Below are positions 45,260 to 59,486 of a stretch of DNA of 64,000 bases, piece after piece; positions within the stretch are counted from its first letter, which is position 1; every line of letters begins with the position of its first letter. The translations under genes were made by a program, and so were the position numbers. Below the pieces are notes generated by a model. It was not told the origin of the DNA. It ran no database searches and worked only from the letters and a program-made list of their open reading frames with translations. Location of the stretch: positions 62,001 to 126,000 of the forward strand of contig NZ_CP054862.1 of assembly GCF_013459645.1 (NCBI RefSeq), in the 5' to 3' direction. The DNA comes from Martelella sp. NC20 (GTDB taxonomy: Bacteria; Pseudomonadota; Alphaproteobacteria; Rhizobiales; Rhizobiaceae).

Positions 45260-45286
45260 GAGAGTACCGCAAAGTGTGGGGCAATT
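45260..45286 (+). repeat. Left terminal inverted repeat of ISKra4-type element
   Basis: 27 bp, perfectly complementary to 47575-47601, beginning GAGAGTACCGCAAAG and ending GCAATT. Confidence 0.95.
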
Positions 45287-46670
45287 AGGCTGCCATTCTG
45301 TTTTCTGTGCTTGATTCCATTCCTGAATACCAGTGCTCAAATTTCGCACGCAGCGTTCCATCGAGCGTTCGGGTACGAGTTTGCAACATGAGATGAGCGC
45401 CCCGTCTGGACCAACGCATCTGCTGGCGTTTGTTGAAGCGCTTGCCAACAACAGTGTTCACGGTGCTTTCGACGAAACCGGTTGAGACACGTTCACCATA
45501 GCGCCGCCGTTCCGCATAGTTCGGGATCATGTTGGCGTTGTTCGCAATGTAGGTTTCGAATTCGGCAGCGGATTTGCGCAAGGCCTTGAAGCTCGGGTAG
45601 TCGGTTTCGATCTCATCCAGATCAATGACCAGATCTCCGATTATTGTCCGGCCGTCATGTAGATTGCCATGCCAAAGGAAGCCTTTGATTTGGCGGAGCA
45701 GGCGGGAGATAGCCTCAGCTTCTTCTGGATTGCTATGAGCCAGCCCCTTCACATATTGCTGCATTACCGTGATGCGCATGGTGATATGAAACCAGTCGAG
45801 GATGTGTTCCGACGCAGGCGCCATATGGCGGGCCATCTTGATGACTGTGTCGCCGCCATCGGTCATGAATGTTACCATCTGGTTTTCCTGCCAACCTTGG
45901 TCTTTCAGCACTTCATGCAGCCGCCGTTTCGGTTTGTCGTCATGGCTTTGGACGAGACCCAAGTAGCGACTGGGCCGATCTGTCGAGATCGACTTGCCCA
46001 CCGTCACTTCAAAATGCGACTGGTCGACATCACGGGATCGAACATAGCCGCCATCAATTCCGACCGTAATCGGTCCTTCCGGATTGGAAAGTTGTGCCCG
46101 TTGATGAGCGTTGGTGCTAATGAAGCTGAAGCGCTCGTCAGCCAGATCTGTTTCCATGCGAGTTGCTATACGCCCCAAATGTCGGCGGATACTGTCCGAA
46201 CTGAGTTTCCTATTGATGGGCAAGACATCCTTCAGAAGGTCTGTGGTGACCCCGAAAGACATTAACGATGCCCATTTCGTTTCCAGCCAGAGCAGCTCTG
46301 GGGCAACGTGGTCGGGCAGAAGCTCGGTCAAGGGACTGAAAGTCCTGGCCGACATGTCCTGGCAAAAGCACTGGTAGAAGCGAGGACTGTTGACACCGAC
46401 ATCACCGAAAACCGTACGATATCTGATTTGTCGGCGCGCCTTGCATCTCAGTTTTAGACCGCAGCACTGGCAGGATGCGCGCTCGGCGCAAGAGGCTGCA
46501 CACTGCGCGCCCACGATCTTTTGCTGGATATTCAGCAGGAGCGTCTTGCTTTCGTCAATACTCAGTCCGATTTCGCCGATTGTTTCAAACCCTTTGGTGA
46601 GCTTACCTATCGTGTCGGTGTGGGTCGTGCCGTCCGGGGCGGTGATTGTGACTTTGATTTCAACATCCAT
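45285..46670 (-). CDS. ISKra4-family transposase
   Basis: 461 residues. An N-terminal Cys-rich zinc-finger-like region (Cys57, 61, 67, 69, 70, 76, 101, 103) is followed by a DDE-type core with Asp206 (ITVGIDGGYV) and Asp271 (VTFMTDGGD), then ILDWFHITMRI. The C-terminal VSTGFVESTVNTVVGKRFNK and QQMRWSRRGAHLMLQTRT fit ISKra4 transposases. Intact length and intact inverted repeats suggest recent activity. Confidence 0.92.
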   Translation of the reverse strand: MDVEIKVTITAPDGTTHTDTIGKLTKGFETIGEIGLSIDESKTLLLNIQQKIVGAQCAASCAERASCQCCGLKLRCKARRQIRYRTVFGDVGVNSPRFYQCFCQDMSARTFSPLTELLPDHVAPELLWLETKWASLMSFGVTTDLLKDVLPINRKLSSDSIRRHLGRIATRMETDLADERFSFISTNAHQRAQLSNPEGPITVGIDGGYVRSRDVDQSHFEVTVGKSISTDRPSRYLGLVQSHDDKPKRRLHEVLKDQGWQENQMVTFMTDGGDTVIKMARHMAPASEHILDWFHITMRITVMQQYVKGLAHSNPEEAEAISRLLRQIKGFLWHGNLHDGRTIIGDLVIDLDEIETDYPSFKALRKSAAEFETYIANNANMIPNYAERRRYGERVSTGFVESTVNTVVGKRFNKRQQMRWSRRGAHLMLQTRTRTLDGTLRAKFEHWYSGMESSTENRMAA

Positions 46671-46878
46671 GCTCGTACTTTCCTGCCAACTTTCTTATGC
46701 CGTTTGTGCGCCTCGGTGCGTGAGGAGTGCCAACCAGCCTTGAAAAGCAGGCTACGACGCCCGCAGTGACGCCCACTTGAATCCACTGCTTCCATTGCCT
46801 GAAGCTGGTTTCATCGGCTGGTTCATGGATGAATTTGAGCATAAGGCTCGGACAGAAAAGCAGGTAGCCTGAGAACTT

Positions 46879-47541
46879 TCACCACATCTGCTGATGCATT
46901 AATTGTCGGTGGTTGCCGGCGCGGAAGCGCTTATTCACCTGTCCCCGTGAAGATGTTCCCTCAATGAAAGGTGCGCGCGCAACCATTCGCTCCATTGCGG
47001 CTTCGACATCATCAGACAGGAAGTCAGATACCGCGCGATCAGGCGTACTCGCGACTGCGATATCTTCGAGAAAATCAGCCATGATGTCCATGTCTCTCCA
47101 GGCATCATAGCAATCAGCCTCATCCCGTCGTTCCAGGTAGCCATGCGGCCCGCCACAATCCTCCGGCGGGCAAGCCCCAGATCCACCAGTGCAACTTGGG
47201 TAGGATTTACCTGCAGTCAGTGTACTTATCTTCTCAATGCGTATTTCGTGTTCCCAATGGTCGCCCATATCATACACATATGAAAATCTTTCACGCTCTC
47301 GCAGTTCGAATGTCTGTAGAGCGATATCCGGTCTGGAAACATGAAGATCAAATGAACCGTAGCTGACCGCGTGGACATTGAAGAGAAACAAATGGATGCC
47401 CTCCCAGCCCATAGCCACCTGAAGAATGCCGTGCAACTCGTGCAGGGTTGTCGATGCCGGAATCAAAACGCGCCGCCAAACCATCGGGCTGATACCGAGA
47501 AGACGAACTTTTATTTGATAGATTTGCGGCGCGGGTGACAT
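46879..47541 (-). CDS. Plasmid pRiA4b ORF-3 family protein (IS passenger)
   Basis: 220 residues. The fold matches pRiA4b ORF-3 (IKVRLLGISPMVWRRVLIP, then LHGILQVAMGWEGIHLF and WEHEIRIEK), with the Cys-rich block YPSCTGGSGACPPEDCGG and HGYLERRDE towards the end. The family often accompanies transposable elements; its role is not established. It lies inside the ISKra4 inverted repeats, upstream of the transposase. A truncated relative sits at 7870-8475. Confidence 0.88.
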   Translation of the reverse strand: MSPAPQIYQIKVRLLGISPMVWRRVLIPASTTLHELHGILQVAMGWEGIHLFLFNVHAVSYGSFDLHVSRPDIALQTFELRERERFSYVYDMGDHWEHEIRIEKISTLTAGKSYPSCTGGSGACPPEDCGGPHGYLERRDEADCYDAWRDMDIMADFLEDIAVASTPDRAVSDFLSDDVEAAMERMVARAPFIEGTSSRGQVNKRFRAGNHRQLMHQQMW

Positions 47542-48287: not shown

Positions 48288-48545
48288 GGAAAACCACTTT
48301 ACGAGGATGACAGGATTCACGCGGTGATGATGATCGAGGTCGTCGGCAAATCGGCGACCCAAGTCATTCGCAAGCTGCGCGGTCTGCCGGAAGTCTATTC
48401 GCTGCATACCACCAATGGCAGCTGGGACCTCGTCGCCAGTATCCGGACCTCCACCATCTCCGAATTCGACCGGATCCTGCAGGAGGTCCGGATGATCGAG
48501 GGCGTGTCGAACAGCGAGACCAGCCTGCTGTTGAGCAGTGTCTGA
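48288..48545 (+). pseudogene. Lrp/AsnC-type ligand-binding (RAM) domain, N-terminus missing
   Basis: The frame opens after a TAA at 48285 and reads EDDRIHAVMMIEVVGKSATQ, then GLPEVYSLHTTNGSWDLVAS, then IEGVSNSETSLLLSS, the full C-terminal RAM domain of Lrp/AsnC regulators. The DNA-binding HTH is missing. ATGs at 48324-48330 could start a 71-73-residue stand-alone RAM protein; such proteins exist and modulate full-length Lrp proteins. Truncation is the more likely reading because the leftover EDDRIHAV matches the linker of intact proteins. Confidence 0.65.
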
Positions 48546-48577
48546 GCGCGCGGTCCGACTTTCAGATTTACGGCGGC

Positions 48578-49729
48578 CTAGCCGGAAAAATGGTAGAGCG
48601 GCTTTCTGTCGATGGTGCTTCCGGGAATGAACTTGTGGGTGCGAAGCGCATCCTTTTCGAACCGGACGCCGTGACCCGGCGCATCGGAGAGCTGGTGTTT
48701 CCCCCCGCTGATCGGTAGCGGTGCGGATGTCGCGCCGAAATCGAACAGGTTGAGACCGAAGATATTCTCCACATGCATTGCGTTCGGGAGCGCTGCCGCG
48801 AGATGGACCGAAAGCTCCGCAGCCCCGTGAGGGGAGACCGGAATGCCCGCCGCCGCGCCGAGCGCCGCGATCTTCACGAATTCGGTGATGCCGCCGACCT
48901 TCCAGACATCGGGTTGCAGGAAATCCAGCGCGCCGGCGCGGATATAGTTCCAGAATTCGAAACGGTTGCAAAGCTGCTCGCCCGCCGCGATCGGCATGCC
49001 GGTTGCCGCCCGCAAGGCGGCATGGCCATCGATCGTATCGGAGAGTAGCGGCTCTTCCAGAAACAGCGGCGCGGCATCGATGAGCAGGCGTGAACGCTGG
49101 ATCGCCTCGCCGGGCGACCACTTCTGGTTGGCATCGAGCATGAGCTGGCAGTCCATGCCGATGAGATCGCGAACCGCCATGACGCGCTCCCGGTCCTCAT
49201 GCAGCCCCGGCCTTCCGACCTTGAGCTTGAACGCCCTGTAGCCTTCGCCAAGCTGCCTGCGCGTCTGCTCCAGAAGTTCATCCAACGAAAGGTGGAGGTT
49301 GATGGCGCTGGCATAGACCTCGACCGCGCTTCGGGCACCGCCCAGCAACCGATGGAGCGGCTCGCCGGCCGCCTTCGCCTTCAGGTCCCACATGGCGATG
49401 TCGATCGCCGAAAGCGAAAGCGTGGTGATGCCGCCCGGCCCGGCGGCATGGCATTCCATCCACAACCGCTGCCAGACCTGCTCGGTGTTGCGCGGGTCCA
49501 TCCCGATCAGCATCGGGGCGAGATAGCCGGTGATCAGCGCTTCGGCGGCGGCCGCGCCCACGCCTGCCGTCGTGCACCAGCCGGTCCCGCTGCTGCCGTC
49601 CGACGCGGCCACCTCGACCAGAACCAGTTCGCGATGGGTCATGGTCACACGGCTGGAGGTAAACGGCTGCTTCAGCGGCAGCCGGTAGCCGCTGCCGTGG
49701 ACTTCGGTAATCTTCATGTCGGTCGTCAC
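48578..49729 (-). CDS. Enolase-superfamily enzyme, mandelate racemase-like subgroup
   Basis: 383 residues. Catalytic features of the mandelate racemase group are visible: the KxK base motif Lys168/Lys170 (AFKLKVG), metal ligands Asp199 (LMLDAN), Glu225/226 (FLEEPL) and Glu251 (AAGEQ), and the His-Asp dyad Asp274 (FLQPDVW) and His301 (PVSPHG). It abstracts a proton next to a carboxylate; many relatives are sugar-acid or tartrate dehydratases, others racemases. It is divergent from the tct genes and probably part of the same pathway. The RBS is modest. Confidence 0.88.
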   Translation of the reverse strand: MTTDMKITEVHGSGYRLPLKQPFTSSRVTMTHRELVLVEVAASDGSSGTGWCTTAGVGAAAAEALITGYLAPMLIGMDPRNTEQVWQRLWMECHAAGPGGITTLSLSAIDIAMWDLKAKAAGEPLHRLLGGARSAVEVYASAINLHLSLDELLEQTRRQLGEGYRAFKLKVGRPGLHEDRERVMAVRDLIGMDCQLMLDANQKWSPGEAIQRSRLLIDAAPLFLEEPLLSDTIDGHAALRAATGMPIAAGEQLCNRFEFWNYIRAGALDFLQPDVWKVGGITEFVKIAALGAAAGIPVSPHGAAELSVHLAAALPNAMHVENIFGLNLFDFGATSAPLPISGGKHQLSDAPGHGVRFEKDALRTHKFIPGSTIDRKPLYHFSG

Positions 49730-49936
49730 CTCCCTCGTTCACCCGGAAAGCCATGCCGTTCTGGCTGTAGCCTTGCGCCAGCCCATCTTGCCGGAGCCCG
49801 AAGAAGCACACCTTGTTGTTATCGACGCCTTTCGCCTGACGAAACGTCGTTGTGTGGCTATTTCGCTGAATCGGCATGCGGATATTGTGAACGCGCCGCG
49901 GCGGATTCCTTCAAAACGACGAGAAATGCTTGAAAC

Positions 49937-50401
49937 ATGCAGAAAACAAAACTCAACGCCGATCTGATTTCCGGATTGCTTTTCATAGCGTTCGGACTGT
50001 GGTTCTGCGTTTCATCGGTCTTCAGCCTCAATCTCGGCAATGCGTTCCGGATGGGGCCCGGGTTCTTTCCGGCAGCCCTTGGCGGCCTTCTCGCGCTGCT
50101 CGGCCTTGTCATCGTCGTCAACGGCCTGCGATCGGATGAAGCGCCGTTGACGCTCGCCAATGTCCCGTGGCGGGCGGTCGTGCTGCTGCCGGTGGCGCTC
50201 ATCCTGTTCGGCGCGGCCATGAAACCGCTCGGGCTTGCCATTGCGCTTCTTCTGCTGTGTTTCTGCTCGGCCATGGCGATCAAGGAGATGACGCTGCCGA
50301 AGGCCGTGGCGTTGTCGGTCGCGGTCACGCTGCTTTGCATCGGTATTTTTTCCGTGGCGCTCGGTCTCAACCTGCCTGTTCTCGGCAACTGGCTGCGATA
50401 G
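49937..50401 (+). CDS. tctB: Tripartite tricarboxylate transporter small permease TctB
   Basis: 154 residues with four hydrophobic helices and the TctB opening (LNADLISGLLFIAFGLWF, then MGPGFFPAALGGLLALLGLV). It is the small membrane subunit of a TTT system and acts with TctA. It begins the forward operon tctB-tctA-CoA transferase-tctC-dehydrogenase-hydrolyase, 11 bp before tctA. Confidence 0.9.
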   Translation: MQKTKLNADLISGLLFIAFGLWFCVSSVFSLNLGNAFRMGPGFFPAALGGLLALLGLVIVVNGLRSDEAPLTLANVPWRAVVLLPVALILFGAAMKPLGLAIALLLLCFCSAMAIKEMTLPKAVALSVAVTLLCIGIFSVALGLNLPVLGNWLR

Positions 50402-50412
50402 GGGGCTGAACA

Positions 50413-51921
50413 GTGGATTTCATCAACAATCTCGCGCTCGGCTTCTCGGTCGCCTTTGCCGTCAATAACCTGTTCTTCTGCTTTGTCGGCGTCCTGGGCG
50501 GCACGCTGGTCGGGGTCCTGCCAGGTGTCGGACCGCTGGCGACGATCGCCATCCTGCTGCCGGTCACGTTTTCCATGGGGCCGGATTCGGCGCTGATCAT
50601 GCTCGCCGGCATCTATTACGGCGCCCAGTATGGCGGCTCGACGACGGCGATCCTGCTCAACCTGCCCGGCGAGGCGTCGTCGGCCGTCACCACGCTGGAT
50701 GGCTACCAGATGGCGCGCAAGGGCCGGGCGGGGCCGGCGCTTGCGACCGCGGCGCTATCCTCGCTTTTTGCCGGAACGATCGCGACGCTGGTGATCGCGC
50801 TGTTTGCGGCCCCGCTCACCCATGTGGCGATGGCGTTCCGGCCGCCATCCTACTTCTCGATGATGGTGCTTGGCCTGATCGCATCCGTCGTGCTCGCCCA
50901 CGGCTCGGTGCTGAAAGCCATAGCCATGGTGCTGCTCGGGCTGCTGCTCGGCATTATCGGCACGGATATCTACACCGGTACGACCCGGCTGAACATGGGC
51001 ATGCTGGAGCTTGCAGACGGCGTCGATATCGTCGCGCTGGCCATCGGGCTTTTCGGTATCGCCGAGATCCTGCGCAATCTGGAAACGACCGAAGTCCGCG
51101 AGGTCCTGAACGAGAAGGTCAAGGGGCTTTGGCTGTCGCGCGCCGATTTCAAGCGCATCTTCATGCCTTCGGTGCGCGGAACCGCGATCGGCTCCGCGCT
51201 CGGCATATTGCCGGGTGGGGGCGCTATGCTGTCCTCGTTCGCCGCCTATATCGTGGAAAAGAAGGTGTCGAAGAACCGCGCCGAATTCGGCCACGGCGCG
51301 ATCGAGGGCGTTGCCGCGCCCGAAGCGGCTAACAATGCCGGCTCGCAGACCGCCTTCATTCCGATGCTCACCCTCGGCCTGCCGTCCAACGCCGTGATGG
51401 CGCTGATGATCGGGGCGATGATCATTCAGGGCATCCAGCCGGGACCCGACATCATCGTCAAGCAGCCGGGCATGTTCTGGGGCCTGATCGTGTCGATGTG
51501 GATCGGCAACTTCATGCTGGTGCTGCTGAACCTGCCGCTGATCGGGTTGTGGGTGAAGTTCCTGTCGGTGCCCTATTCGGTTCTGGTGGTGGCGGTGATG
51601 GCGTTCAGCGCGGTCGGCATCTACTCGGCCTCCGGCACGCTTTTCTCGATGTACGAACTCGGTTTCTTCGCCTTGCTCGGATACCTGCTGATGCGGCTCG
51701 GCTGCGAACCGGCGCCGCTGACGCTCGGCTTCATCCTCGGCCCGATGATGGAGGAGCAATTGCGGCGCAGCATGCTGATGTCGCGCGGCGATCCGACCGT
51801 TTTCCTGACCGAACCGATCAGCCTGGCATTTCTGGTTGCCGCCGCCATCGTGCTCGCGCTGCTCGCGCTGCCGTCGATCGCCCGCAAGCGCGAAGAAGCC
51901 TTCAGTGAAAGCGAGGACTAG
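50413..51921 (+). CDS. tctA: Tripartite tricarboxylate transporter large permease TctA
   Basis: 502 residues, GTG start, about 11-12 membrane helices. Family motifs: LVGVLPGVGPLATIAILLP, YYGAQYGGSTTAILLNLPGE, the repeated IGSALGILPGGGAMLSSF with NNAGSQTAFIPMLTLGLPSN. It forms the ion-coupled translocation channel for carboxylates delivered by TctC. Length is normal. Confidence 0.95.
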   Translation: MDFINNLALGFSVAFAVNNLFFCFVGVLGGTLVGVLPGVGPLATIAILLPVTFSMGPDSALIMLAGIYYGAQYGGSTTAILLNLPGEASSAVTTLDGYQMARKGRAGPALATAALSSLFAGTIATLVIALFAAPLTHVAMAFRPPSYFSMMVLGLIASVVLAHGSVLKAIAMVLLGLLLGIIGTDIYTGTTRLNMGMLELADGVDIVALAIGLFGIAEILRNLETTEVREVLNEKVKGLWLSRADFKRIFMPSVRGTAIGSALGILPGGGAMLSSFAAYIVEKKVSKNRAEFGHGAIEGVAAPEAANNAGSQTAFIPMLTLGLPSNAVMALMIGAMIIQGIQPGPDIIVKQPGMFWGLIVSMWIGNFMLVLLNLPLIGLWVKFLSVPYSVLVVAVMAFSAVGIYSASGTLFSMYELGFFALLGYLLMRLGCEPAPLTLGFILGPMMEEQLRRSMLMSRGDPTVFLTEPISLAFLVAAAIVLALLALPSIARKREEAFSESED

Positions 51922-51924
51922 ACC

Positions 51925-53127
51925 ATGGACCCCATCAACGACATCCGCCCCTTCGAGGGCATCAGGGTACTGGACATTACCCATGTTCTGGCCGCGCCCT
52001 TCGCGACCTATCAACTCGCGGTTTTCGGGGCCGACGTCATCAAGATCGAAAACCCGCACGAGCCGGAGCAAACCCGTATCGACGGCAGCGATCCTGAGCT
52101 CTCGGCGGACAATATCGGCACCCACTTCATCATCCAGAATGGCGGCAAGCGCTCGTTCACCCTGGACCTGAAAACCGAGGAGGGACGCGAGATCCTGCGC
52201 AGACTGGTGCCCGGCGCGGATGTTCTGGTCGAGAACTTCCGGCCGGGGGCGCTGAAGGCGCTCGGGCTTGGCTATGAGGATCTCAGAAAACTCAATCCCC
52301 GCCTGATCTACGCCTCGATGTCCGCCTTCGGGCAGGATGGGCCGCGCGGCGGGCAGACCGGTTACGATCAGGTGATCCAGGCGGTGTCAGGGCTGATGAT
52401 GGTCAACGGAACCGCCGACATGGTGCCGATGAAGGTCGGCACGCCGGCCGTCGACTATTCGACCGGCGCGATGGGCGCGTTCGCGCTCGCGGCAGCGCTA
52501 TTCCAGCGGGAAAGGACCGGGCTTGGGCAATATATCGACCTTTCCATGCTCGATACCGCGCTGATGCTGATGGGCGCGCATCTGACCAATTACAGCCGCT
52601 CCGGCAAGGAACCGAAGGCGGGCGGCAACCGGCACGAATTTGCGACCTGCGGGCTCTACGACACAAAGGATGGCAAGATTCAGATCGCCGCCATCAACCT
52701 GCGCCAGCAGGCGCGGCTCTGGAAGGCGCTCGGTCATCCCGAACTGGTCAAGGCCAGCAATGCCGAACGCCGTGCGGGTGCCGCCGAGGAACTGGCTATC
52801 CTGCTGCCGATCCTGATGACCAGGACGGCGGCCGAGTGGGAGGACTGGTTCCAGGACCATCACATCCCTGCCGCCAGGGTGTGGACGCTGCCGGAAACGC
52901 TGGCCCACAGCCAGCTCGAGACCCGTGATATTCTACACCACTACCAGGATGAGCCCGGCATTCCCGGACGGATCACGGCCCCGAAGGCCGCGTTCAAACT
53001 GGAACATGGCGGCGCGCGGATCGATCGTCCGCCGCCGCGTCTGGGCGAGCACAATGAGGAATTGCTCGCCGAACTCGGCTACAGCGCCGAGGAAATCGCC
53101 GCCCTGCGCACCGCAGGCGCAATCTGA
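51925..53127 (+). CDS. CaiB/BaiF (class III) CoA-transferase
   Basis: 400 residues. Blocks: GIRVLDITHVLAAPFATYQL, GADVIKIENP, LVENFRPGALKALGLGYEDL, and the probable catalytic Asp177 in GTPAVDYSTGAMGAF. Class III enzymes move CoA between carboxylic acids through aspartyl-CoA anhydride intermediates (formyl-, oxalate, succinyl-CoA:citramalate types). Being placed between tctA and tctC, it probably activates the imported acid to its CoA thioester. It starts 3 bp after tctA. Confidence 0.92.
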   Translation: MDPINDIRPFEGIRVLDITHVLAAPFATYQLAVFGADVIKIENPHEPEQTRIDGSDPELSADNIGTHFIIQNGGKRSFTLDLKTEEGREILRRLVPGADVLVENFRPGALKALGLGYEDLRKLNPRLIYASMSAFGQDGPRGGQTGYDQVIQAVSGLMMVNGTADMVPMKVGTPAVDYSTGAMGAFALAAALFQRERTGLGQYIDLSMLDTALMLMGAHLTNYSRSGKEPKAGGNRHEFATCGLYDTKDGKIQIAAINLRQQARLWKALGHPELVKASNAERRAGAAEELAILLPILMTRTAAEWEDWFQDHHIPAARVWTLPETLAHSQLETRDILHHYQDEPGIPGRITAPKAAFKLEHGGARIDRPPPRLGEHNEELLAELGYSAEEIAALRTAGAI

Positions 53128-53151
53128 ACCCATAATGAGGAGGAGAACCCC

Positions 53152-54123
53152 ATGAGACCCCTGGCACTACTAACGTCCATTTCCCTGGCGCTCGCGACAT
53201 TGACGGGCGCCGCCGCCGCTGCGGACGGTGACTATCCGAACGATATCGTCCGCGTCGTCGTCGGTTCATCGCCTGGCGGCACGGCCGATACCGTTTCCCG
53301 GCTCGTGGCCGATGCGCTGAGCGACAAATTCGGCAAAACCTTCGTGGTCGAGAACCTGCCGGGCGCTGGCGGCGCGCTGGCGGCCTCGGAGGTCAGGAGC
53401 GCCGAACCGGATGGCTACACCATCCAGTTCATCTTCTCGTCGTTTTCGATCCTTCCCTCGCTGAACCCGGATGTGAACTACGATCCGGTCAAGGATTTCG
53501 AGGCGATCACCATGGTCTCCTATGCGCCGAACCTGCTGCTGGTGAACCCGTCTTTCGGCGTCAAGACCTTTCCGGAGTGGGTCGACAAGATCAAGGCCAA
53601 TCCCGGCAAGTTCGACTATGGCAGCGGCGGGATCGGCTACAGCCAGCATCTGTCGATGGAAATGCTGCTGCAGGATATCGGCGGCGACGTGGTGCACATC
53701 CCCTATGCCGGCAGCGGCAATCTGCTCGGTGCTCTGATCTCGGGCGAAATTCCGTTCGCCTTCGACACGCTGACGACGGCCGTGCCGCACATCGAATCCG
53801 GCGCGCTCATACCCCTGGCGATCACCAGTACCGAGCGGTCCGAGATCCTGCCGGACGTGCCGGCGGTCGGCGAGTTCGTCGAGGGCTACGAACTGACCGC
53901 CTGGAACGGTTTTGTCGCGCCGGCGGGGACGCCAAAGGAAATCATCGATGAACTGAACGCTGCGATCGTTGAATATCTCGAAACCGACAAGGCCAAGGCG
54001 TTTTTCGGCAAGCTCGGAACCGCGATCGCCGCGAGCACGCCCGAAGAATTCGAACAGGTGATTGCCGGCGACTACGAAAAATTCGCAGTGGTGATCAAGG
54101 AAGCGGGCATCACCGCGCAATAA
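53152..54123 (+). CDS. tctC: Tripartite tricarboxylate transporter binding protein TctC (Bug family)
   Basis: 323 residues with a Sec signal peptide (cleavage after AAAAA, about residue 25). The Bug layout follows: VRVVVGSSPGGTADTVSRLV, ENLPGAGGALAASEV, and IPYAGSGNLLGALISGEIPF with WNGFVAPAGTPKEIIDELN. It binds a carboxylate in the periplasm and presents it to TctAB. AGGAGGAG precedes the ATG. Confidence 0.93.
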   Translation: MRPLALLTSISLALATLTGAAAAADGDYPNDIVRVVVGSSPGGTADTVSRLVADALSDKFGKTFVVENLPGAGGALAASEVRSAEPDGYTIQFIFSSFSILPSLNPDVNYDPVKDFEAITMVSYAPNLLLVNPSFGVKTFPEWVDKIKANPGKFDYGSGGIGYSQHLSMEMLLQDIGGDVVHIPYAGSGNLLGALISGEIPFAFDTLTTAVPHIESGALIPLAITSTERSEILPDVPAVGEFVEGYELTAWNGFVAPAGTPKEIIDELNAAIVEYLETDKAKAFFGKLGTAIAASTPEEFEQVIAGDYEKFAVVIKEAGITAQ

Positions 54124-54130
54124 GCCAGAC

Positions 54131-54162
54131 AAGCCGGGCAGGACAGGTCTCCAGCCCGGCTT
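54131..54162 (+). terminator. Stem-loop after tctC
   Basis: A perfect 9-bp stem (AAGCCGGGC / GCCCGGCTT, 14-nt loop) starting 7 bp after the tctC stop and followed by CCC rather than a U-run. Likely a 3'-stabilising or partial termination element. Confidence 0.6.
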
Positions 54163-54218
54163 CCCGACGCATGCCGCCGGGAGGCGAATGCGTTTTGCCA
54201 TGCTGCGGAGTTCCGCCA

Positions 54219-55277
54219 ATGTCAGATGAGAAAACTTTTTCCGCCGACATTCTGCGCCGGTTCGCGACCGGGCTTTTTAGCGCGGCCGGCCTTTCCGCAA
54301 AGGCGGCGGGCCGCGTTGCCGACGCGCTGATCGAGGCCGATCTCTCCGGGCGCGGTTCGCACGGATTGTTGCAGGCCGACAGATATATCGAGCGGCTGAT
54401 CGCGGGCGCGATGTCGACCGCCGACGCGCCGATGGTCGTCAGCCGCAGCCACGGAGCGATCGTGCTCGATGCGGATGGCATGGAAGGCCATCTGGTCGCC
54501 GAGGATGCGATGAAGATGGCCATCGAGACGGCCCGTGAAACCGGCATAGCAGCCGTCGCGGTCCGCCGGGCGCAGCACATGGGCGTGGTCGGGCGCTATG
54601 TGCGCATGGCCGCCGAGGCCGGCTGCGTGGGCATTGCCATGGGCAACACCAAGCCAGTGATGGCCGCTCCCGGCGGCGCGGAAAAACTCGTCGGCACCAA
54701 TCCGCTGGCGATCGGCATACCGGCCTCAAGGGAAGCGATCGTGCTCGATATGGCGACCAGCGCGGGCACTTACGGCCGCATCCGGCAGGCAAATGCGCTT
54801 GGCCAGGACATTCCCGACGGCTGGGCGCTTGATGCCGAGGGCGTTGCGACCACGGACCCGGCGGAGGCGATGAAAGGACTGTTGCTGCCGGCCGGCGGCG
54901 CAAAGGGCTTTGGCCTGGCCTTCATGATCGATCTGCTCGCCGGGTTGCTATCCGGCGGGGCGTGGGGGACGAAACTCGGCCTGATCGACGACAGCACCAT
55001 CGGACCGCAGATGTCGTCCTATCTGTTCATCGTGCTTGATATCGCTTCATTCCGGCCACTTGAGGAATTCAAGGCGGAGGCGGATGAAGCGATCGCCGGG
55101 GTGCGGCAATCGCGCAGGGCCGAAGGCGTGGACCGGCTCTATACGCCCGGCGAACGCAGCGCGGAACAACTGGCCGCGAGCACGGGCCGGGTCAGGCTCG
55201 CCCCCGCCGTGGTGCAAGCGCTTGCCGAACGCGGGCGGCAACTCGGCATCACCGTGCCCGCAGAACTTCTGGAGTGA
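54219..55277 (+). CDS. Malate/L-lactate dehydrogenase-family (Ldh2) oxidoreductase
   Basis: 352 residues from the ATG at 54219. Ldh_2 family, NAD(P)-dependent and unrelated to classical lactate dehydrogenase: catalytic His48 in SGRGSHGLLQ, the second His in AQHMGVVGRY, VGTNPLAIGIPA, IVLDMATSAGTYGRI and GGAKGFGLAFMIDLLAGLLS. Relatives oxidise 2-hydroxy acids (malate, sulfolactate, ureidoglycolate) or reduce 2-keto or imino acids. It probably handles a hydroxy-acid intermediate of the tct-linked pathway. Confidence 0.9.
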   Translation: MSDEKTFSADILRRFATGLFSAAGLSAKAAGRVADALIEADLSGRGSHGLLQADRYIERLIAGAMSTADAPMVVSRSHGAIVLDADGMEGHLVAEDAMKMAIETARETGIAAVAVRRAQHMGVVGRYVRMAAEAGCVGIAMGNTKPVMAAPGGAEKLVGTNPLAIGIPASREAIVLDMATSAGTYGRIRQANALGQDIPDGWALDAEGVATTDPAEAMKGLLLPAGGAKGFGLAFMIDLLAGLLSGGAWGTKLGLIDDSTIGPQMSSYLFIVLDIASFRPLEEFKAEADEAIAGVRQSRRAEGVDRLYTPGERSAEQLAASTGRVRLAPAVVQALAERGRQLGITVPAELLE

Positions 55278-55283
55278 TCGGCG

Positions 55284-56153
55284 ATGACCATCACCTGCGA
55301 TATCATCAGGGAAACCGCACGGGCGCTCTATGACAGGGCGCTCAGGCGCATTCCGGAAAACTCGAAAGAGGCGCTGGCAACCGCCCTTGAAACGGAAAGC
55401 TCGCCTTCTGCCCGCACGACGCTCGAATTCATGATCAAGAGCGCCCGCCGCGCCGAAGAGAAATCGACCTTTGTCTGTTCGGATGCGGGCTTTCCTGTCT
55501 ATTTCGTCAAGATCGGCACGAAGGCCCGGTTTGAGGGCGATATCAAGAAGGCGTTTGTCGATGCGTTCGACGAACTGGTGAGAACGATCGAGCCGCCGAT
55601 CCTGAAATTCGTCACCAACCCGCTGACCGGCGAGCGCAGCTACCACGGCAAGGATATGCCGCATATCACCTGGGATTTCGTCTCGGATGACGATTGCATC
55701 GATATCACCTGTTCCCCCAAGGCGCTCGGCTCCGGGCGCTGGGCCGCGCTGGAAATCTTCAGCTATCCAAAGCTTGAGGAGATCGAGCGCTATATTCTCG
55801 ATGTCTCGATAAGGGCAGGCTCGCAGCATTGCCCGCCGGTGGTCATCGGCGTGGGCATTGGCGGCTCCTTCGACCATGCGGCGAAAATGGCGAAGCTGCA
55901 GACGCTCCGTCCGTTCGGGACCACCAATCCTGAGCCGATCTTGGCCGCGATGGAAGACCGGCTCACCCGCGCCGTCAACAAGACGGGCTTCGGGCCGATG
56001 GGGACCGGCGGCGACACTACCGCGCTCGGCGTTCACATCGATTATGCCTCCGGCCACGGCTTCACCCCCGTTGCCGTCTGCTTCAACTGCTGGATCAACA
56101 GGCGCACCCGGGCGCGCATCAACAATGACGGAGAGGTAGCCTATCTTGAGTGA
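55284..56153 (+). CDS. Class I fumarase/L-tartrate dehydratase-type hydro-lyase, alpha subunit
   Basis: 289 residues. The [4Fe-4S] cysteines should be Cys65 (FVCSDAGFP), Cys143 (ITCSPKALGSG) and Cys183 (QHCPPVVIGVGIGG). The motif CSDAG replaces the usual CQDTG, and CSPKALGSG replaces the KG-GSE loop, so substrate contacts differ from true fumarase. KMAKLQTLRPFGTTNPEP and GFGPMGTGGDTTALG are also family blocks. It hydrates or dehydrates a small dicarboxylate together with the beta subunit encoded next. Confidence 0.9.
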   Translation: MTITCDIIRETARALYDRALRRIPENSKEALATALETESSPSARTTLEFMIKSARRAEEKSTFVCSDAGFPVYFVKIGTKARFEGDIKKAFVDAFDELVRTIEPPILKFVTNPLTGERSYHGKDMPHITWDFVSDDDCIDITCSPKALGSGRWAALEIFSYPKLEEIERYILDVSIRAGSQHCPPVVIGVGIGGSFDHAAKMAKLQTLRPFGTTNPEPILAAMEDRLTRAVNKTGFGPMGTGGDTTALGVHIDYASGHGFTPVAVCFNCWINRRTRARINNDGEVAYLE

Positions 56154-56766
56154 GTACCTTCTCGATCTGCCGGTCTCGCCAGTTCTGGCGCGGTCCCTGA
56201 AGCTCGGCGATACCGTCTTTCTGCGGGGAGATGCCGTGATCACCGCGGGCTATCCCACGCACCAGCGCCTGCTGGACTGCGTTGAAGAGGGCCGAATGCC
56301 GCCGGTTTCCATGGACGGCGGAGCGTTCTTCCATCTCGGCTGCATGAGCCGGGAAGAGGACGGCGCGTTGCGCCCGCTTTACGTCAACCCCACCACCAGC
56401 ACGCGCTTCAATGCCTTCATGCCGCACATCATCACCCATTTCGGCCTGACCGTCGTCGGCGGCAAGGGCGGTCTCGATGCCGAAAGCGTTGCCGCGATGA
56501 AGAAGGCCGGCTGCGTCTATCTTTCCATCCTCGGCGGCGGCGCGCCGTTGCTGACGGAAGGCATCGAGGCGGTCTGCGAAACCGGCTGGAACGACCTGAT
56601 CGTCCAGTTCCGCCTTTCCCGGGTCAGGCTGGACACGTTCGGACCGCTGACCGTGGCCATCGACGCTCACGGAAACTCGGTCTACGCCGATCTCAGCGCC
56701 AGCGCCGAGGCGCGCCTTCCCGACATCATGCGCGAGCTCGCGAGGGACAGGTCAATTCAGTTGTGA
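56146..56766 (+). CDS. Class I fumarase/L-tartrate dehydratase-type hydro-lyase, beta subunit
   Basis: 206 residues. It begins at TTG (56146), inside the alpha gene (8-bp overlap) with GAGAGG about 9 nt upstream; no in-frame ATG or GTG lies near. Fumerase_C blocks: LKLGDTVFLRGDAVITAGYP, RDGA-like MDGGAFFHLGC, VNPTTSTRFNAFMPHII and GGKGGL. The overlap and TTG start imply translational coupling for equal stoichiometry. Confidence 0.88.
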   Translation: MSEYLLDLPVSPVLARSLKLGDTVFLRGDAVITAGYPTHQRLLDCVEEGRMPPVSMDGGAFFHLGCMSREEDGALRPLYVNPTTSTRFNAFMPHIITHFGLTVVGGKGGLDAESVAAMKKAGCVYLSILGGGAPLLTEGIEAVCETGWNDLIVQFRLSRVRLDTFGPLTVAIDAHGNSVYADLSASAEARLPDIMRELARDRSIQL

Positions 56767-57606: not shown

Positions 57607-58320
57607 ATGAACGATGAAAAAACCGCTATCATGCCGCTTGCACCGATAAGCCGCGTGCGACAGGTCGCCGACGCACTGGTGGACTACGTGTCGCGCTCCG
57701 GCTTGAAGCCAGGCGGTCGTATCCCGGCCGAACGCGAGCTGATGGCGGCGCTTGGCGTCGGGCGCTCGACGATCCGCGAGGTGATCCGCCACTTTCAATC
57801 GCTCGGCGTGATGGAGACCCGCAAGGGCAGCGGTACCTTTCTGCTCAAGCCGATCTCGTCGGCCACCATCCACATGCCGTTGTCTCTGGATGCGGTCAAT
57901 CTCCGTGACGCTTTGCTGCAGACGCTGGAAGTGCGCCGCGGCATCGAGGCGGAGGCCGCCATGGCCGCAGCGCGGCGCCGCACCGCCGCGGACCTGAAGA
58001 TCATAGAGGAAAGGCTCGACGCGATGGAGTGCGTGCACCTGTCCAAGGGCACGTCCGGACCGGAAGACCTTGAACTGCATCTGGCGATCTACGACGCCAC
58101 GCATAATCCTTTGTTCCGCCAGCTTCTGGAGCAGATGCGCGAGGCGTTCGAGAAATTCTGGACCAAGCCTTTCGACCGTCCGGATTTCGCCCGCCGCTCC
58201 TTTCCCTATCACCGCACTTTGTTCGACGCCATCGCCGCCCAGGATACCGAGGCCGCGCGGCGGGAAACACTGAAGATCCTCGACGTCGTCGAGGAAGACA
58301 TCAAGGAAATGTCCAAATGA
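57607..58320 (+). CDS. GntR-family (FadR/FCD) transcriptional regulator
   Basis: 237 residues. N-terminal winged helix (about 15-80: GRIPAERELMAALGVGRSTI, then GVMETRKGSGTFL) and a C-terminal FCD domain (about 95-225: LEVRRGIEAEAAMAAARR, DLELHLAIYDATHNPLF, YHRTLFDAIAAQD), whose Asp and His residues usually bind metal and a carboxylate effector. Its stop overlaps the next start (ATGA), so regulator and enzyme are coupled. Confidence 0.92.
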   Translation: MNDEKTAIMPLAPISRVRQVADALVDYVSRSGLKPGGRIPAERELMAALGVGRSTIREVIRHFQSLGVMETRKGSGTFLLKPISSATIHMPLSLDAVNLRDALLQTLEVRRGIEAEAAMAAARRRTAADLKIIEERLDAMECVHLSKGTSGPEDLELHLAIYDATHNPLFRQLLEQMREAFEKFWTKPFDRPDFARRSFPYHRTLFDAIAAQDTEAARRETLKILDVVEEDIKEMSK

Positions 58321-59486
58321 ATGACGGCCTCTCCCAAGCCGAAGAAATCGCGCTGATCGGCGCACATGACGAGGGCCACGCCTTCGCCGCCGTCGTTCCG
58401 CCGATCGTGCAGACGTCGCTTTTCACCTTTGGGAACTACGACGAGATGCTCGACACCTATGCCGGCCGGAAGGAGCGTTTCGTCTATTCGCGCGCCGCGA
58501 ACCCGACGGTCAGGGTGTTCGAGGAGATGCTGGCGCGCATGGAAAAGGCGGAGGACGCGGTCGGCTTTGCCAGCGGGATGGCGGCGATTTCGGCGGCGAT
58601 CATCACTTTCGTCGAGCCGGGAGACCGGATCGTTGCCGTGCGCAACGTCTATCCCGATGTTTACCGGCTGTTCGGCACCATCCTGAAGCGGATGAAGATC
58701 GAGGTTGAGTATGTGGACGGGCTGGACCTTGAAGCGGTCGATGCGGCGCTTTCCGGCGCGAAGCTGTTCTATATGGAAAGCCCGACGAGTTGGGAAATGG
58801 AGGCCCACGACGTCGGCGCGCTGGCGGCGCTCGCAAAAAAACATGGCGCGATCTCGGTGATCGACAATTCCTGGGCAAGCCCCGTTTTCCAGCAGCCGAT
58901 CACGCTCGGCGTCGATCTCGTTCTCCATTCGGCCTCCAAGTATATCTCCGGCCACAGCGATGTCGTCGCTGGCGTCGTCGCCGGATCGCGGGAGATGATC
59001 GGCCGGCTGCGCGGGGAGGCGCTGTCCTATCTCGGCGGCAAGCTCGCCCCTTTCGAGGCCTGGCTTCTGACGCGCGGACTGAGAACGCTTGCTATCCGGA
59101 TGAAGGCGCATGAGACCTCCGCGCTTGAAATCGGCAGGCGGCTTGCCGCCCGCGACGATGTCACCAAGGTCTGCCATCCGGGGCTGAAAAACCAGCTTCC
59201 GCCCGGGCTTTCCGGAACCTCCGGCCTGTTTTCCTTCCACCTTTCCCGACGCATCGACATCAAGGCCTTCTGCGACCGGCTCTCGCTGTTCAAGCTCGGC
59301 GTCAGTTGGGGCGGTCATGAAAGCCTGATCGTGCCCGGAGAGGTGGTTCTGGCGCAGAAGGCGCAGCCGAATTCGGCTCAAGCTTTCGGCCTCGATCCGC
59401 GCTCAGTGCGCATTCATGTCGGGCTGGAGGGCACGGAAGCGCTTTGGCGCGACCTTGAGGCGGCCTTCGAGGCCGCCAAAGTCTGA
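58317..59486 (+). CDS. Cys/Met-metabolism PLP enzyme (cystathionine gamma-synthase/beta-lyase type)
   Basis: 389 residues of PLP fold type I. The PLP lysine is Lys208 (HSASKYISGHSD), the cofactor-binding block is SGMAAISAAI, and Asp183 is in VIDNSW. SLGV-type end motifs (FKLGVSWGGHESL) are present. Reactions in the family include beta- or gamma-elimination of sulfur amino acids and related substrates. The pairing with a carbohydrate-type ABC importer and a GntR regulator is unusual, so the substrate could be an amino-acid conjugate. The name is by family only. Confidence 0.88.
   Translation: MNDGLSQAEEIALIGAHDEGHAFAAVVPPIVQTSLFTFGNYDEMLDTYAGRKERFVYSRAANPTVRVFEEMLARMEKAEDAVGFASGMAAISAAIITFVEPGDRIVAVRNVYPDVYRLFGTILKRMKIEVEYVDGLDLEAVDAALSGAKLFYMESPTSWEMEAHDVGALAALAKKHGAISVIDNSWASPVFQQPITLGVDLVLHSASKYISGHSDVVAGVVAGSREMIGRLRGEALSYLGGKLAPFEAWLLTRGLRTLAIRMKAHETSALEIGRRLAARDDVTKVCHPGLKNQLPPGLSGTSGLFSFHLSRRIDIKAFCDRLSLFKLGVSWGGHESLIVPGEVVLAQKAQPNSAQAFGLDPRSVRIHVGLEGTEALWRDLEAAFEAAKV

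Follow-up and report, generated by a model that had tools for sequence, protein, structure and literature searches.

Which acid does a catabolic locus serve when its hydro-lyase is labelled 'fumarate hydratase' and lacks residues that fumarases keep? We addressed this question for an eight-gene set in a 64,000-nucleotide stretch of Martelella sp. NC20 DNA (NZ_CP054862.1, positions 62,001 to 126,000; hereafter the window). The set consists of a divergent gene for a mandelate-racemase-type (MR) enzyme followed by tctB–tctA–(class III CoA-transferase)–tctC–Ldh2–hydro-lyase alpha–beta. The tct genes encode a tripartite tricarboxylate (TTT) importer, and we refer to the hydro-lyase as HLab (subunits HLa and HLb). 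We propose, with a probability of roughly 0.5, that this is an accessory catabolic operon for an imported carboxylic acid, with a core formed by HLab-dependent (de)hydration and Ldh2-dependent oxidation of a 2-hydroxy acid. Somewhat more tentatively, HLab may represent a subfamily with a new reaction, in which the hydroxy acid that is (de)hydrated does not have the 1,4-dicarboxylate arrangement of malate. This reaction would supply a hydroxyacid dehydrogenase, in catabolic clusters scattered over Alpha-, Beta- and Gammaproteobacteria whose hydro-lyase is recorded as 'fumarate hydratase' wherever annotation was inspected.

An accessory operon under purifying selection

The genes and the gap between the divergent units are as follows (window positions, strand, product and basis).

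48578..49717, minus: mandelate-racemase/muconate-lactonizing-type enzyme (enolase superfamily), divergent; Pfam MR_MLE_N and MR_MLE_C, start as in the RefSeq coding sequence on the Martelella sp. NC18 plasmid
49718..49936, no strand: divergent intergenic region of 219 bp, a probable promoter region for both transcription units from its position between divergent genes
49937..50401, plus: TctB, small membrane subunit of the TTT importer; Pfam TctB
50413..51921, plus: TctA, large membrane subunit of the TTT importer; Pfam TctA, 494 bits
51925..53127, plus: class III (CaiB/BaiF) CoA-transferase; Pfam CoA_transf_3, 366 bits
53152..54123, plus: TctC periplasmic binding protein; Pfam TctC
54219..55277, plus: Ldh2-type 2-hydroxyacid dehydrogenase; Pfam Ldh_2, start as in RefSeq
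55284..56153, plus: [4Fe-4S] class I hydro-lyase alpha subunit (HLa); Pfam Fumerase, clade tree and predicted model
56146..56766, plus: hydro-lyase beta subunit (HLb), TTG start; Pfam Fumerase_C, 8-bp overlap with HLa

All genes from tctB to HLb lie on one strand, with spacings of 11, 3, 24, 95 and 6 bp and an 8-bp overlap in the last pair. An initial annotation of this DNA had described a carboxylic-acid catabolic set with a complete importer and a CoA-transferase wedged between tctA and tctC. Pfam matches and coordinates agree with it on each point, and all the genes it named are present and intact. Its start for the set, position 48288, has to be moved: the MR gene ends at 48578, and 48288–48577 holds none of it.

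We identified the full set, in unchanged order and at 62–98% identity, in three further genomes. Two are Martelella, namely M. mediterranea IOP_24 (L031) and a second genome with the set on a 4.67-Mb contig (G403, L197), each 90–98% identical per protein; the third is Nitratireductor aestuarii (L032), at 62–88%. The ratio of nonsynonymous to synonymous substitution rates (dN/dS) across all eight genes is 0.03–0.12 against M. mediterranea and 0.09–0.21 against N. aestuarii, and all eight are under purifying selection. Pseudogene status was considered and rejected, since the genes are intact and dN/dS is low.

The HLa gene is present in 3 of 13 Martelella genomes; its neighbours were examined in two besides the window, and the third carrier (G405) may be the same genome as M. 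mediterranea IOP_24. The expectation that the gene order would recur elsewhere was borne out in the three genomes above, but the whole set was seen only in Martelella and one Nitratireductor, and at none of the other loci among the best 80 of 103 HLa relatives. Because the order is kept in these three genomes and only 3 of 13 Martelella genomes carry the alpha gene, we conclude that the operon is genuine and accessory, with a narrow distribution when all eight genes are considered together.

Parts of the set recur more widely, either the hydro-lyase with Ldh2 or the hydro-lyase with the TTT importer and a CoA-transferase. At four loci (L052, L073, L078 and L089) the hydro-lyase, TctC, TctA and a CoA-transferase 33–49% identical to the window's are consecutive on one strand; this row is another arrangement of the same functions. 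A literature search of titles and the beginnings of abstracts, covering few subscription journals, gave no description of the gene set or of the hydro-lyase clade described below, and a characterized member may exist.

HLab belongs to a distinct class I hydro-lyase clade

HLa scores 213.6 bits on Pfam Fumerase (cut-off 25) and HLb 76.2 bits on Fumerase_C (cut-off 22.2). TIGR00722 is reached by HLa, and TIGR00723 is missed by HLb (114.4 bits, cut-off 145.15). Both subunits also miss the NCBIfam equivalog cut-offs for L(+)-tartrate dehydratase (HLa 132.2 versus 365 for TtdA; HLb 96 versus 264 for TtdB).

Among 397 genomes of the order, 54 match HLa at 1e-20. Thirteen places in 11 of these genomes are 61–100% identical to HLa, and the next match falls to 35%. 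Close relatives (58–95% identity) occur at no fewer than 80 loci in Alpha-, Beta- and Gammaproteobacteria; these were the best 80 of 103 relatives, and the remaining 23 may have intermediate identity. Six plasmids carry a clade alpha gene, the window's own among them, and all six copies are annotated 'fumarate hydratase'.

For alignment and phylogeny we used alpha rows with 240 or more aligned residues, assigning those of 55% identity or higher to the clade and those below 55% to the other rows. After identical rows had been removed there were 95 distinct clade rows, the window's included, and 19 non-clade class I rows, all from the one order. In a tree of these rows with Escherichia coli TtdA and FumA, a branch with support of 100/98 splits the clade from all other rows, and the split is present in 99% of 200 bootstrap trees; deep in the tree the branches are long, and the program gives a warning on how the E. 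coli rows join it. The hydro-lyase thus belongs to a distinct monophyletic clade within the class I superfamily.

The best AlphaFold2 model of HLa has a mean predicted local distance difference score (pLDDT) of 84.6, with loop 149–152 below 50, and a predicted template-modeling (TM) score of 0.82; the other four models have mean pLDDT values of 64.7–68.7. A Foldseek search with the best model gave Methanocaldococcus jannaschii fumarase (7xky_A) as the top match (TM 0.85, E 4.6e-29), and chains of the Leishmania fumarase (LmFH) matched at TM 0.77–0.84. HLa is therefore predicted to have the class I (FumA/TtdAB) fold.

The same genome encodes FumC above the model cut-off, and we found no second class I hydro-lyase match in it. 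HLab is for this reason not needed as a tricarboxylic acid cycle fumarase, and we rejected that plain role.

The clade has lost two arginines kept by fumarases

We compared active-site residues using LmFH numbering, set from the 5l2r alignment with a 36-residue offset (Cys133, Cys252, Cys346, Arg173 and His334, and the C-terminal Arg421, Thr467 and Arg471). HLa Cys65, Cys183, Cys269, Asp67 and His258 are conserved in 95 of 95 clade alpha rows. Through FumA they align with LmFH C133, C252, C346, D135 and H334, of which we take the cysteines to hold the cluster and D135 to be catalytic. The LmFH residues that presumably contact the malate carboxylates are Arg173, Arg421, Gln134 and Lys491. PDB titles list the LmFH variants R173A, R421A, R471A, T467A and H334A with malate, fumarate or malonate, and four of these five changes are visible in the chain sequences. 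Four positions of the clade are listed here.

55602..55604, plus: HLa Leu107 (LmFH Arg173); Leu throughout the 95 clade rows, against Arg in all 19 others and in TtdA and FumA; the R173A variant is entry 6uqm
56248..56250, plus: HLb Gly35 (LmFH Arg421); all 93 clade rows have Gly where TtdB and FumA have Arg; the R421A variant is entry 6uq8
55479..55481, plus: HLa Ser66 (LmFH Gln134); 94 of the 95 clade rows have Ser where TtdA and FumA have Gln
55710..55712, plus: HLa Cys143, an extra invariant cysteine in the loop CSPKALGSGRW; present in all 95 clade rows and in none of the 19 others

The beta rows number 93 rather than 95 because L044 and L077 gave no usable row. Of 18 other beta rows, 13 have Arg in the Arg421 column and 5 have a gap, and the Gln134 column varies outside the clade too (Ala 11, Gln 5 and Gly 3 of 19). 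Residues invariant in the clade only are HLa Arg118, Cys143, Arg152, Trp153 and Gln181 and HLb Tyr79, Asn81 and Arg156. HLb Arg87 and Lys107 are present in all 93 clade rows, and Thr83 in 87, with Ser in the other 6.

The clade therefore combines the cysteines and Asp/His pair of the Fe–S superfamily with loss of the Arg173/Arg421 pair of class I fumarases. A departure of the hydro-lyase loops from fumarase, remarked on in the initial annotation, holds over 95 alpha and 93 beta rows; Cys143 of the CSPKALGSG loop, however, is not aligned with the cluster cysteines Cys65, Cys183 and Cys269. Because the equivalents of Arg173 and Arg421, kept by fumarase relatives, are lost, the clade probably acts on something other than fumarate.

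Compared with E. coli TtdAB, HLab is likewise a two-subunit class I hydro-lyase with aligned cluster cysteines, catalytic Asp/His and the beta Thr, Arg and Lys. It differs in that HLb is 29% identical, in scores below the TtdAB model cut-offs, and in that TtdA and TtdB retain CQDTG and the equivalents of Arg173 and Arg421. Class I fumarases/mesaconases (FumA, FumB, FumD, LmFH and 7xky) share the predicted fold (TM 0.85 to 7xky_A, ~0.8 to LmFH) and the aligned cluster cysteines, but HLa is 34% identical to 7xky_A and ~20% to LmFH, and HLab lacks Arg173/Arg421 and has the extra invariant Cys143. Two arginines that were mutated singly in Leishmania fumarase structures are thus absent from all examined rows of a clade whose six plasmid copies are labelled 'fumarate hydratase'.

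Hydroxyacid dehydrogenases recur beside the clade

We examined gene context by tblastn at 89 loci (the 80 best alpha relatives, five plasmid loci and four from further genomes). A first count from gene calls was rough and lost the alpha gene at four loci; the tblastn recount covers all 89. Genes up to 5 kb away were scored as near and those at 6–10.5 kb as far in the 64 loci with at least 9 kb on each side; loci of related species were counted separately, and near and far counts are not independent.

A hydroxyacid dehydrogenase lies within 1.8 kb of the hydro-lyase at 39 of 89 loci (20 D-2-hydroxyacid, 8 Ldh2, 6 PanE-like and 5 HIBADH-like). The dehydrogenase of L113 and four others like it are D-2-hydroxyacid dehydrogenases by Pfam, the RefSeq name at L113 being HIBADH-like. 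Any of the four families is found near at 36 and far at 14 of the 64 loci, with near/far counts of 9/1 for PanE-like, 5/0 for HIBADH-like and 5/0 for Ldh2. That one seat is filled by several different dehydrogenase families suggests that the hydroxy/oxo step is conserved while the pathway next to it varies.

Other gene types are also denser near the hydro-lyase: flavin reductase (22/0), glutathione S-transferase (GST, 35/12), LeuCD-like (8/1), HpcH/RraA (10/2), MaoC (8/2) and carboxymuconolactone decarboxylase (CMD)-like (21/14). Little or no enrichment was seen for enoyl-CoA hydratase (4/19), Amidohydro_2 (9/12), DUF6282 (6/6) and the MR enzyme (2/4). Should the clade act on a substrate other than fumarate, the current annotation is wrong for many catabolic clusters, whose neighbors include GST, flavin reductase, LeuCD-like and other genes, and work on the Martelella HLab–Ldh2 pair could help to assign a step to them.

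A LeuCD-type (isopropylmalate-isomerase-like) dehydratase lies near the hydro-lyase at L035, L037, L040, L041, L075, L115 and L116, giving two hydro-lyase families per cluster. Protocatechuate-3,4-dioxygenase-like genes, their family taken from one representative, adjoin the hydro-lyase at L066, L068, L071, L076 and L088 in Roseomonas relatives; they lie within 1.8 kb at 5 of 89 loci and were counted at 3 near and 2 far of 64. Together with Amidohydro_2, these genes were counted to see whether the clade might be tied to ring cleavage.

We considered whether the GST could be a maleylacetoacetate isomerase supplying a trans substrate to HLab, and rejected this role: the one neighbor scored, that of L115, reaches 24.8 bits on the MaiA model (cut-off 171). 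A chromosomal GST of the Martelella sp. NC20 genome scores 21.2 bits on the same model. It belongs to a locus (L161, G000 C1:3995000-4014000) that also encodes a CoA-transferase, a CMD-like protein, flavin reductase, enoyl-CoA hydratase, a GntR-UTRA protein, 3-hydroxyacyl-CoA dehydrogenase and a second CoA-transferase 52% identical to the window's. These gene types are frequent beside the clade elsewhere and occur here without the hydro-lyase.

Ldh2, the MR enzyme, the CoA-transferase and the importer

Ldh2 lies within 1.8 kb of a clade hydro-lyase at 8 of 89 loci, two of them the full operon. Of the 397 genomes of the order, 8 have a close Ldh2 relative, and 6 of these are among the 11 with a clade hydro-lyase (P = 2e-9; P = 0.0036 with each genus counted once and the own genus excluded). 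Two relatives were flagged with an in-frame TGA, and both are intact across the matched stretch. The best NCBIfam model for Ldh2 is L-sulfolactate dehydrogenase, at 241.6 bits against a cut-off of 500.

The MR enzyme has a full mandelate-racemase catalytic set (KxK K164/K166, the three metal-binding acids D195/E221/E247, the His–Asp dyad D270/H297, and E317), on our assumed match to mandelate racemase numbering. Its best NCBIfam model is L-talarate/galactarate dehydratase, at 255.3 bits and below the cut-off of 500, and it reaches no equivalog. For the CoA-transferase the best model is succinate-glutarate CoA-transferase (258.7 bits, cut-off 750), and it scores 220.2 bits on the succinyl-CoA:mesaconate CoA-transferase model (cut-off 700).

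The nearest PDB relatives of TctC are 2dvz and Bug27 (2qpq), which the available part of PMC5812351 lists with glutamate and nicotinic acid. Characterized TTT ligands named there include citrate, sulfolactate, terephthalate, adipate and galactarate/glucarate. Since these ligands are diverse, the importer alone does not name the substrate.

A proposed pathway and its alternatives

In the proposed pathway, TctC, TctB and TctA would import a carboxylic acid, HLab would add or remove water at a hydroxy acid/enoic acid pair, and Ldh2 would interconvert a 2-hydroxy acid and a 2-oxo acid. The CoA-transferase would probably prime the acid for cleavage by transferring CoA to it, with succinyl-CoA or a different compound as the donor. 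The MR-type enzyme may racemize or dehydrate a stereoisomer that the other enzymes cannot use. We infer the direction and order of these steps as well as the last two roles. The substrate would be none of fumarate, malate, (2R,3R)-tartrate, mesaconate and citramalate, but a hydroxy acid with a second polar group placed unlike malate's; for the new reaction of HLab, candidates include 4-oxo-enoates, hydroxy acids that are longer or branched, and acids bearing a different anionic group.

Several observations weigh against this proposal. The commonest dehydrogenase type, D-2-hydroxyacid dehydrogenase, is hardly denser near (17) than far (13) at the 64 loci, and 50 of 89 loci have none of the four families within 1.8 kb. 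Of the six genomes with both Ldh2 and the hydro-lyase, four are one genus, and two (G227 and G263) have the two genes on separate contigs. The CoA-transferase (30/22) and TTT (37/26) genes are in slight near/far excess only. Across the wider clade, then, the set as initially annotated has a weak link to the CoA-transferase and none to the MR enzyme, but it does find a counterpart in the four loci with the hydro-lyase–TctC–TctA–CoA-transferase row. Neighbors vary greatly between lineages, and clade members may not share one substrate. Finally, the invariant HLa Arg118 and Arg152 and HLb Arg156 could rebuild a dicarboxylate clamp, which would allow a fumarate-like substrate.

It is possible, though unlikely, that the assembly is loose, with Ldh2 and HLab forming one unit and the MR enzyme, CoA-transferase and importer being neighbors with partly separate roles. 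MR relatives at 44–47% identity have TRAP-like importer genes and a GntR-like gene beside them, and the 12.7–17.5 kb read there holds no hydro-lyase. CoA-transferase relatives at 48–56% likewise belong to other gene sets, several of which include thiolase genes along with TTT, RraA or PrpD, and the stretches read around these relatives also lack a hydro-lyase. Set against this are the same order of eight genes in four genomes of two genera, gaps of 3–95 bp from tctB to HLa in the window, and the row at four other loci.

A mesaconate/citramalate route, one of two raised in the initial annotation, is less likely still. HLab would act as a mesaconase, the CoA-transferase would form (S)-citramalyl-CoA, and an HpcH/CitE-type lyase encoded elsewhere would cleave it. 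This scheme matches the logic of mesaconate use in the accessible text of PMC4682846, which presents mesaconase as an activity of ordinary class I fumarases. The annotation had noted the absence of a citramalyl-CoA lyase; this is true of the operon, but the genome has 8 HpcH/HpaI-family matches, and HpcH/RraA genes favor near positions across the clade. Against the route, a methylated fumarate should need the same two-carboxylate clamp, whose Arg173/Arg421 equivalents the clade lacks; the CoA-transferase, for all its 220 bits on the mesaconate model, is far under the cut-off; and Ldh2 and the MR enzyme have no place. Pseudomonad itaconate/methylsuccinate clusters are comparable in their CoA-transferase-based breakdown of small acids and in a class I fumarase that makes citramalate from mesaconate, but have an itaconyl-CoA hydratase and a citramalyl-CoA lyase that are absent from the Martelella operon (PMC12290011, in the part available).

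The operon might instead interconvert stereoisomers of a sulfolactate-like 2-hydroxy acid, which we regard as quite improbable. After TTT import, the ComC-like Ldh2 would handle one enantiomer and the MR enzyme or a second dehydrogenase the other, with HLab eliminating a 3-substituent. The slcHFG sulfolactate loci of Roseovarius and Chromohalobacter reportedly use Ldh2-type and D-2-hydroxyacid dehydrogenases and, to our knowledge, have no class I hydro-lyase or CoA-transferase. The operon would thus resemble these loci in how it works without being one of them. According to the available text of PMC5812351, sulfolactate is taken up by TTT systems in these two genera, so that the importer is shared. 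Sulfolactate dehydrogenase is the best model for Ldh2, and loss of carboxylate-binding arginines would suit another acidic group, but the Ldh2 score is well under the cut-off. No sulfite exporter or sulfo-lyase appears among the family-named genes, many neighbors being unnamed and no aimed search having been made.

A tartrate-like route, in which MR-type and TtdAB-like dehydratases and Ldh2 would act on tartrate isomers, is the least probable: class I hydro-lyases include (2R,3R)-tartrate dehydratases (PMC4682846, available part) and enolase-superfamily acid-sugar dehydratases exist, the MR enzyme's best model being one at 255 bits, but that score is under its cut-off, both hydro-lyase subunits fall far short of the TtdA and TtdB models, the clade lacks the two arginines that TtdA and TtdB keep, and the CoA-transferase would be superfluous. 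The tartrate and mesaconate routes retain some probability because the clade's invariant arginines might rebuild the clamp and because class I fumarases are promiscuous (PMC4682846, same part).

Surroundings of the operon

The intergenic sequence at 49718..49936 is, by eye, kept in M. mediterranea IOP_24 and not in N. aestuarii. We found no sigma-70-like site in this gap, and promoter and terminator scans gave no more than shuffled sequences did.

Downstream of HLb, 57607–59486 (plus strand) encodes a FadR/GntR-type regulator (best NCBIfam model LldR, below cut-off) and a pyridoxal phosphate (PLP) enzyme (PRK05968), followed by a sugar ATP-binding cassette transporter. Because relatives of the regulator, the PLP enzyme and the sugar-binding protein were found at none of the best 80 of 103 hydro-lyase loci, we left these genes out of the operon.

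The window's replicon has 259,514 bases and matches plasmid unnamed2 of Martelella sp. NC18 (NZ_CP054860.1, 259,503 bases) at 100% over HLa. An ISKra4-family transposase gene (45285–46670) lies upstream of the operon; together with a pRiA4b ORF-3 family gene it occupies 45285–47541 (minus strand) and separates a sugar locus from the MR gene, and these genes possibly hint at how the operon arrived on the replicon. Past the end of the window, the plasmid carries a second TTT set of TctA, TctB and TctC (L111, 24117–28212), with an IS630 transposase between TctB and TctC.

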